Below are positions 3,785-14,106 of a DNA stretch of 14,106 bases, one piece after another. Under the pieces are notes generated by a model, which saw only the letters and a list, made by a program, of their open reading frames with translations, did not search any database and had not been told where the DNA came from. The position numbers were made by a program, and so were the translations under genes. Every line of letters begins with the position of its first letter. The first letter of the stretch is position 1. The DNA lies in assembly GCA_017520105.1 (NCBI GenBank), contig JAFWRL010000020.1, positions 1 through 14,106 of the forward strand, given 5' to 3'. The stretch is from Fibrobacter sp. (GTDB lineage Bacteria > Fibrobacterota > Fibrobacteria > Fibrobacterales > Fibrobacteraceae).

Positions 3785-4471
3785 ATGAAAACCAAATTCT
3801 CACGCATTACATCCATCGTTCTCGCAGGCATTTTTGCACTTGCGGTTACGTCTTTTACTGGCTGCTCGTTGATGAAAAAAATCCAGGCGGCGAAAATTCT
3901 CATCAAGACCAAGTTTGAATACAAGGACCTGACTTTCGACTCTGTCGTTATCGATCCGCCGATTCTCGAACTCGTTGACAAAGGGCTCCAGGGCTTCATT
4001 CCGAATCCGGATGCCGTTAAATTGGTGAAGGACCTGGCTAATGGAATCATCAACACAGAACTGGGTGCTGCTAACTTCGACGTGTATCTGAACGCGAACA
4101 ATGGCGGTAAGGACACGCTGTGGATTAACGAACTAAAAATCGAACTGAAGTTCGATACTCTTATCACGCTTCCGCTTACTCTGAAGGATTCCATGGTCCT
4201 TGCTCCGGGCGACAACGACATGCACTTGAACGCGGCTTTCCCGATTGACATGCGCATCTTCAAGCTCAACGAAGTCAAGTTCTACGCCATTGCCGGTTAT
4301 CTTGACGTGTCCCTTGCAGAGGGTGGCAAATCAGTTTCCCAGGATGTGGAAATCAGACGTGATGTCGATTCTGATGACGTATTGAAACTCGAAGGCGCTG
4401 TTCGCGAGAAGCTTATGAAGCGTCTTGTTGACCAATGGGTCGGCAAACTCGGCAAGTTTATTCTGAAGTAA
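3785..4471 (+). CDS. Predicted lipoprotein, LEA14-like
   Basis: The 228-residue protein starts with a lipoprotein signal peptide: basic MKTKFSR, a hydrophobic core (IVLAGIFALAV) and a lipobox-like SFTGC with Cys27 as the expected lipidation site. The mature part alternates beta-strand-like segments (FEYKDLTFDSVVIDPP, WINELKIELKFDTLITLP) with a hydrophilic C-terminus. This resembles the LEA14/WHy fold found in some bacterial lipoproteins, but the match is by general character only. It should sit in the periplasm, anchored to a membrane. The start is well supported by AAGGAG at 3774-3779, five bases from the ATG. The gene is followed after seven bases by the M3 peptidase gene, so the two are probably co-transcribed. 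A functional link is not evident. Confidence 0.75.
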   Translation: MKTKFSRITSIVLAGIFALAVTSFTGCSLMKKIQAAKILIKTKFEYKDLTFDSVVIDPPILELVDKGLQGFIPNPDAVKLVKDLANGIINTELGAANFDVYLNANNGGKDTLWINELKIELKFDTLITLPLTLKDSMVLAPGDNDMHLNAAFPIDMRIFKLNEVKFYAIAGYLDVSLAEGGKSVSQDVEIRRDVDSDDVLKLEGAVREKLMKRLVDQWVGKLGKFILK

Positions 4472-12845: not shown

Positions 12846-12921
12846 GAGTTAGGTGTTAGATGAAAATGGAGAGACGAGAGTGGTAAAACGAAAGATTTAG
12901 ATTGCAGAATTTAGTTGGCAG
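12846..12921. repeat. Degenerate heptad-like array at the 3' end of the 12911-13378 gene
   Basis: The stretch can be divided into units mostly seven bases long ending in AG: GAGTTAG, GTGTTAG, ATGAAAA, TGGAGAG, ACGAGAG, TGGTAAA, ACGAAAG, ATTTAG (six), ATTGCAG, AATTTAG, TTGGCAG. It runs into the stop codon (12913-12911) of the minus-strand gene. It is much more diverged than the 8316-8480 arrays, so the assignment is tentative. Confidence 0.45.
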
Positions 12922-13378
12922 AGGAGTCGTGCGGAGCCTGCTCGGAGCTTTGTTCGTCGAGCTTTTCTTGCAGATGGTCAATACGGTTGGCAAGCATCTT
13001 TTCGATTTCCGGGAGAAGCTTGTCCTTGACCCTGTCGAGATAAAGACACTGCAACTGAATCATGCGGTTGCGGTGGCGCCCGGCAAATTCCTGAATCCAA
13101 TGGCTCACAGCCTGCTGGCGGTCCTGAATTTTATCATGTAGGGACTGCTGGATGAACGTCCTTTGGACTTCCATGTAGCGCTGCATGTTGAACGGCATGC
13201 GGTAAGTACGGATAAACTGTTTCAGGAGGACTAACAAACCAAGTCGTTCATGCTGATGTTCGTGAATGAACAGACGCAATTCCTCCAGGTGCTTCTGGAA
13301 GAAGGGCACGATGGCTTTATCATCTATTTGATAAAGTTCCAACTCGTCCTGTTTTTTCGTCGCTTCATCGACTGCCAT
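12911..13378 (-). CDS. Helical protein of unknown function
   Basis: The 155-residue protein is not one I recognise. It is charged and almost entirely helix-forming, with no signal peptide or membrane segment, and is rich in Gln, Glu, Leu, Arg and His (for example EELRLFIHEHQHERLGLL and LPEIEKMLANRIDHLQEKL). The last 40 residues could form a coiled coil, ending in a polar tail. A cytoplasmic role, perhaps as a partner of another protein, is plausible but unsupported. The ATG at 13378 has no clear Shine-Dalgarno sequence. It lies only 24 bases after the TGA (13405-13403) that ends the extended U32 frame, which suggests the two genes once formed, or still form, one operon. Its 3' end meets a heptad-like repeat stretch. 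Confidence 0.75.
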   Translation of the reverse strand: MAVDEATKKQDELELYQIDDKAIVPFFQKHLEELRLFIHEHQHERLGLLVLLKQFIRTYRMPFNMQRYMEVQRTFIQQSLHDKIQDRQQAVSHWIQEFAGRHRNRMIQLQCLYLDRVKDKLLPEIEKMLANRIDHLQEKLDEQSSEQAPHDSSAN

Positions 13379-13402: not shown

Positions 13403-13558
13403 TCAGAAAGATTTGGAACGCTTCACAAGAAAGCCGAATTTGGCTGTTTTTTCGCTTTTTAGAGTACATTTTGCCAAAAAAACGCGTCCTTCAGTTCCCG
13501 GATTCAGTCGATCGGCGGCTGCACCGCGAAAATCGAGCATTTCTTCGACCTCGCAAGG
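13403..13558 (-). pseudogene. In-frame U32 C-terminal continuation after an amber codon
   Basis: After the TAG at 13561-13559 the same frame stays open for 51 codons to TGA at 13405-13403. The first part, PCEVEEMLDFRGAAADRLNP, and then EGRVFLAK, match the expected end of the TrhP/YegQ C-terminal domain, where a TVEEM-DxxG segment and a final beta-strand follow the PDG turn. So this is coding sequence separated by one stop, not new sequence. It may be a nonsense mutation, a base-call error or a site of read-through. If translated alone it has no good start. Confidence 0.8.
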
Positions 13559-14106
13559 CTACATTCCGTCGGGGGTCATGAGTTCCAGAGAATCGTCCAT
13601 GGAGAACGGATTTTTCACGTTTACAAGGCATGCGCCAGTGGTTTCATCGAAATCCTTGATCTGGGCGGCCACGCAACCTCCCTCGGCATCCACGTGCGTC
13701 GCTTCGTAGTTCTGCGGCAACGGGCCGCGCAAAAAACCGGGCATAAAGCCTCGCCCATCGACAAAGCGAATCGCGCGGCGGCTTTCTTCGGGTACGGGTT
13801 TACCCTCTGCAACGGCGTCTATGGCCATGCGGTAAGCACGGACGACCTGGCTTAAGTAATAGACGGAGCGCGTGCGGCCTTCAATCTTGAAGGAATCAAG
13901 ACCGCCGGCTACAAGCTCCGGAATCACGTCCAAGGCGCAGAGGTCGCGGCTACTCATGAAGTACGTTCCCCAAGTGTCCTCGTCGAGAGCAATCGGGTCG
14001 AGTTCGGGGCGGTCGGTACGTTGGAGCGTAAAGGAACCTTCGTGCTCCCGGTAGTCTTCGACCTGCGGCCCTGGATTTGCGTACAAACGGTACGGCATGC
14101 GGCAAC
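13559..14106 (-). CDS. trhP: U32 family protein (TrhP/YegQ-like), C-terminal part, amber-interrupted
   Basis: The gene enters from the right edge of the window; the frame is open at 14106 and reads CRMPYRLYANPGP. The visible ~182 residues match the TrhP (YegQ) branch of the U32 'peptidase' family: TYFMSSRDLCALDVIPELVAGGLDSFKIEGRTRS, then YYLSQVVRAYRMAID, then GFLRGPLPQNYEA and the C-terminal beta domain. TrhP proteins act with prephenate in 5-hydroxyuridine formation at tRNA position 34; some relatives modify 23S rRNA instead, so the exact target is uncertain. The frame stops at TAG (13561-13559) after LELMTPDGM, in the middle of the C-terminal domain. The missing end follows in frame. An internal ATG at 14098 is not the real start, because conserved sequence lies before it. 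Confidence 0.85.
   Translation of the reverse strand, partial: CRMPYRLYANPGPQVEDYREHEGSFTLQRTDRPELDPIALDEDTWGTYFMSSRDLCALDVIPELVAGGLDSFKIEGRTRSVYYLSQVVRAYRMAIDAVAEGKPVPEESRRAIRFVDGRGFMPGFLRGPLPQNYEATHVDAEGGCVAAQIKDFDETTGACLVNVKNPFSMDDSLELMTPDGM

Follow-up and report, generated by a model that had tools for sequence, protein, structure and literature searches.

A premature amber stop in a Fibrobacter trhP-like gene, which most likely reflects recent mutation or faulty assembly and not new decoding

An amber codon lies within a conserved gene near one end of a stretch of Fibrobacter DNA, and the question is whether it marks a mutation, an error in the sequence, or a stop that the cell reads through. 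The analysed stretch of DNA (14,106 nucleotides, hereafter the window) carries on its minus strand the truncated 3' part of a trhP-like gene (13559..14104), which comprises 181 codons plus the TAG and was recognized by Pfam and NCBIfam models. The window covers the last 233 codons of the gene (14104-13406) out of about 430, and the 5' part lies beyond it. The in-frame TAG (13559..13561, minus strand, read 13561-13559) sits 545 bases from the window end and corresponds to residue 379 of the 430 in L051, the intact counterpart in the nearest genome. Compared with this 430-aa protein, 52 residues are lost. The frame reads ...LELMTPDGM before the TAG and PCEVEEMLDFRG... after it, and runs on for 51 codons to a TGA at 13405-13403 (continuation including the TGA, 13403..13558, minus strand). 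The downstream gene, a 155-aa ORF on the same strand (12911..13378), begins with an ATG at 13378, which lies 24 bases beyond the TGA and 180 bases beyond the TAG. No Pfam or NCBIfam match was obtained for this ORF in the profile search, and it adjoins the trhP-like gene in the nearest genome too. The position of the TAG, the length of the continuation and both spacings were given exactly so in the preliminary description of this DNA.

The window fragment matched the Peptidase_U32 domain (PF01136) with 87.6 bits against a cut-off of 22.4 (E 9.7e-25), and the intact relative did so with 258.9 bits. Among four NCBIfam models, the TrhP model NF011996 was the best for both the read-through fragment and the intact relative; the latter scored 442.4 bits, with residues 1-424 aligned to model positions 2-440 of 449. 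Because of these domains and the best model match, and with the NCBI equivalog cut-off for TrhP (534 bits) missed by the intact relative, the gene was filed as TrhP-like. It appears to be an ordinary Fibrobacter trhP-like gene, encoding a putative prephenate-dependent tRNA uridine-34 hydroxylase of the U32 family. The preliminary description had spoken of a U32 tRNA-hydroxylation protein. The family name is right, U32 being a peptidase family, whereas the base that is hydroxylated is uridine 34 (PMC6599085). With TrhP (YegQ) of E. coli, a prephenate-dependent tRNA U34 hydroxylase, the gene shares the U32 and U32_C domains and the best NCBIfam model; it differs in the sub-equivalog score of its intact relative and in the early stop of the window copy. 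YrrO and YrrN (TrhP1 and TrhP2) of B. subtilis belong to the same enzyme class, and YrrO is described as carrying a C-terminal motif (PMC6599085), half of which is lost in the window copy. These two are encoded by tandem genes in B. subtilis, whereas Fibrobacter has one strong match per genome. The second U32 match of the genus is longer (mostly an 830-980 aa frame) and represents a distant paralogue. The enzymatic role in Fibrobacter is taken from homology and from what has been published for E. coli and B. subtilis, and would hold by analogy. No solved structure was found by sequence; by fold, Foldseek retrieved 5d88 (U32 peptidase Mk0906) as well as 4he5/4he6 (U32 C-terminal domain), the latter over 89 columns with a target TM of 0.67-0.68.

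The TAG bisects the U32 C-terminal domain (PF16325) at position 40 of its 83-position profile. When the frame is ended at the TAG, the match covers profile positions 6-40 and reaches 24.8 bits, below the cut-off of 28.2; read through, it covers positions 6-66 and reaches 36.6 bits, above the cut-off. An AlphaFold2 model of the L051 protein had a mean pLDDT of 80.6, with values in ten-residue blocks of 85-92 for residues 351-400 and 74-85 for residues 401-430. The C-terminal strands of this model were located at 341-350, 355-360, 370-374, 377-381, 383-387, 402-407 and 422-425. The stop falls inside strand 377-381, and strands 383-387, 402-407 and 422-425 are also lost. Judged from the model, a C-terminal beta domain without its last strands would be unlikely to fold. 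Against this stands the idea that the shortened protein is a functional variant for which the last 52 residues are dispensable. It is favoured by the position of cysteines C171, C178, C194 and C198, which are invariant in a 34-sequence alignment and all lie upstream of the stop; such cysteines, we assume, hold an Fe-S cluster. The cut in mid-domain and mid-strand argues against it. The B. subtilis enzymes bear on both sides, as U34 hydroxylation is reported to need YrrN, described as being without the C-terminal motif, and also YrrO, which has it (PMC6599085). This double requirement suggests, by analogy, that the C-terminal motif matters.

The codon was then compared among relatives. The genome nearest to the window was G001, which had 40% of sampled 31-letter words in common with it; L051 is its contig C75, recorded as from yak reticulum, and the named relatives are Fibrobacter metagenome-assembled genomes, many of them recorded as from ruminants or from horse faeces. 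Window and L051 were 94-98% identical across four aligned blocks. The truncated fragment was 98% identical to G001, and 50 of the 51 residues behind the TAG matched this genome. The highest identity protein among the matches listed was P0132 (JGI, a 141-aa fragment representing a cluster of 7), which is identical in 51/51 residues after the stop and carries Gln in place of the stop. It agreed with the frame read through with Q in 138 of 141 residues, all three differences lying within its first 11, which indicates that the 3' part of the gene is intact in a very close relative. Across the genus, some match was found in 80/80 genomes and an orthologue (E < 1e-100) in 79; the exception, G018, is 62% complete and gave no more than a weak match of the kind seen with the distant paralogue. 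None of the 79 orthologues had a stop inside the matched part, and in all of them the match went past the stop position, reaching at least residue 218 of 233, which also argues against a functional short protein.

Similar results were obtained with 56 named loci, a set that overlaps with the 79 orthologues and is not independent of them. These were kept out of 77 for being labelled Fibrobacter, Fibrobacteraceae or Fibrobacterales, and 21 from other phyla were set aside. Each of the 56 shows a sense codon at the TAG position, encoding one of 17 residues, and none has a gap in this column. Entropy over these sequences peaked in the site column, at 3.60 bits against 3.39 for the next of the 233 window residues, which suggests that the identity of this residue matters little. 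The segment that follows does not vary freely, as 6 of its 51 positions are invariant across the 56 sequences. On these alignments the post-TAG segment is the missing C-terminus of the gene, its similarity to the relatives being beyond chance. The preliminary description was thus correct in placing the TAG within a conserved C-terminal domain with the continuation behind it, and the comparison with sister genomes that it had proposed gave a sense codon in all 56 loci.

Broken copies of the gene do occur in other data. A protein search with the read-through frame gave 718 hits, of which the best 120 were looked at and ten new ones examined. None of these ten ended exactly at the TAG site, a further point against a functional short protein, in a database clustered at 90% identity where a shortened twin could hide within a cluster. 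One distant Fibrobacter protein, P0131 (390 aa), extends only five residues beyond the site. It tracks its near twin P0126, which continues past the site, through the site and two more residues, and then has three unrelated residues, indicating an apparent frameshift; late truncations therefore do occur in such data. Apparent frameshifts further upstream were seen in P0141 and P0144 (environmental copies, compared as protein sequences), and P0063 (348 aa) stops well short of the site and may be cut by a contig end. P0131, P0141 and P0144 show that assembled data contain damaged copies of the gene, whether these arose by error or through mutation. P0131, being likewise shortened, lends something to the idea of a functional short protein, which we nevertheless regard as the least probable of the readings considered. 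Another record, P0145 (JGI), has a PF21445 domain fused to a U32 C-terminus of Fibrobacter type and is probably a chimeric contig.

The same comparisons bear on tolerated read-through, in which a real TAG would be decoded often enough, because termination is leaky or the strain has a suppressor tRNA of its own, to give a useful full-length enzyme. Two observations are in its favour: the stop stands at the most variable residue (rank 1 of 233), where an inserted residue would probably be harmless, and the post-stop codons are undecayed. However, an in-frame stop was absent from the 79 orthologues and from the 56 named loci, and TAG is an ordinary terminator here, ending 15 of the 56 intact orthologues (TAA 38, TGA 3) and dnaA in both the window and G001. 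The preliminary description had already taken the TAGs of dnaA and the PadR gene for normal stops, and the G001 orthologues do end at the homologous place, with TAG for dnaA and TGA for PadR. Release factor RF1 (PrfA) was over the cut-off in 14/16 same-genus genomes, G001 included. Of the other two, G014 (77% complete) gave two partial matches only, and G013 (96% complete) gave only a 240-bit match below the cut-off, which resembles the weaker second match of other genomes, taken for RF2. No stimulatory RNA structure was detected after the stop: by single-sequence folding, the 103 bases from the stop fold no better than 200 shuffles (z -0.33). The only tRNA gene within the window is tRNA-Ser(gga). 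Read-through or a change of code was accordingly rejected as the main reading because the relatives examined have no stop, TAG is an ordinary terminator and RF1 was found in most same-genus genomes. From the sequence evidence, programmed or reassigned read-through is unlikely. Tolerated read-through we hold to be very improbable, and it is slightly more improbable still that the TAG is fixed in the strain and regularly decoded, at a position that accepts any residue, so that the full-length enzyme is made through its own in-frame stop. Of the three causes between which the preliminary description had made no choice, read-through thus loses ground, and mutation and error both remain.

A base-calling or consensus error in a contig that is probably metagenome-assembled would mean that trhP is intact in the real strain. 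This is a substantial possibility, although one that we put at less than even. It is in line with the lack of a stop here in the relatives examined, with the Gln at the site in the near-identical P0132, with the undecayed segment after the stop and with the closeness of the site to the window end. The apparent frameshifts in P0131, P0141 and P0144, which are broken versions of the gene in assembled data, point the same way. On the other side, ten other ORFs of the window have no internal stop relative to G001 and end at the homologous place, with the qualifications that the window start cuts one of them, that another is unequal in length by one residue and that the 155-aa ORF has its last nine residues unaligned with G001. 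The TAG is the only such lesion seen in the window, and a generally poor window sequence is not supported by these ORFs. Furthermore, two of the three bases of the stop codon are unlike those in the two nearest genomes, both changes being assigned to the window branch, and one wrong base would be insufficient unless the true codon differed. The latter argument is weak, since a site that varies so much could well have had a differing true codon.

In sum the preliminary observation is accurate and its cause appears ordinary, and most likely lies in recent mutation or faulty assembly, not in new decoding. We consider it somewhat more probable than its opposite that the premature amber stop is private to the strain, and likeliest a recent nonsense mutation in an ordinary trhP-like gene; the weights given to the nonsense allele and to the base error were judged, not computed. 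The mutation reading is preferred because no stop occurs in the 79 orthologues, the codon is a sense codon in all 56 loci and Gln in P0132, and because the stop bisects both PF16325 and a strand of the model. Strain-private nonsense alleles and young pseudogenes are a known kind in bacteria, and the present case resembles them in its one in-frame stop, its intact relatives and its lack of decay. Translation would end at the TAG, the last 52 residues would be missing and the truncated C-terminal beta domain would fail to fold properly. The enzyme would then lose most or all of its activity, and U34 would remain unhydroxylated in the tRNAs concerned.

Base changes around the stop were placed on branches by comparison with L051 and L096. 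The 51 post-stop codons plus the TGA differ from L051 at six bases. Polarised by L096, two of the six fall on the window branch, both silent, and three on the L051 branch; the sixth, in the sole codon with an amino-acid difference, could not be placed. One of the two silent window-branch changes lies in a codon with a different residue in L096, so its direction is shaky. Upstream of the stop, 16 silent changes and one amino-acid change were assigned to the window branch. No sign of post-stop decay was seen in this comparison, in which two silent changes carry little weight, and an undecayed segment fits error or efficient read-through equally well. P0131 counts against the mutation reading, as it points either to errors at such places or to a C-terminus that is sometimes dispensable.

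A further point against a nonsense mutation is its possible cost. The TrhO marker Rhodanese_C (PF12368) had no match in any of 16 same-genus genomes and was found in 5/14 controls, which included E. coli and B. subtilis. The aerobic TrhO back-up known from E. coli hence seems to be missing in Fibrobacter, and the loss of TrhP could be costly. CmoB was above the cut-off in 0/16 same-genus genomes, which gave weak sub-cut-off methyltransferase matches only. Neither the TrhO marker nor a CmoB above the cut-off was thus seen in the 16 genomes, although the TrhP-like gene is present in 79/80 Fibrobacter genomes. E. coli without trhP and trhO is reported to be temperature sensitive and to decode GCG and UCG less efficiently, the strain used in the growth test also being without serU (PMC6599085). 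Should the stop be real, loss of TrhP would probably leave a Fibrobacter viable but with changed wobble decoding, and this strain would offer a natural experiment on TrhP loss in an anaerobe seemingly without the oxygen-dependent TrhO. As it stands the significance is small: one gut bacterial strain has one early stop in a gene of a well-known family. It does teach that stops in draft contigs need checking against reads before any claim of read-through.

Some other features of the window were observed in the course of these comparisons. A plasmid origin was considered and rejected, as a 1207-base stretch had no match in a plasmid collection and the window is collinear with the G001 contig. Between dnaA and the 155-aa ORF, window 12851-12954 corresponds to 13365-14864 of L120 (L051 4652-5542); this gap is about 1.5 kb in the nearest genome versus about 100 bases in the window, and the extra sequence of about 1.5 kb includes a 296-aa ORF with a signal-like N-terminus. 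G015 aligns in one piece across the gap. A 228-aa lipoprotein-like ORF (window 3785-4471) is a fast-changing gene with 86% identity to its G001 counterpart, compared with 96.5-99.3% for the nine other window ORFs compared with G001.
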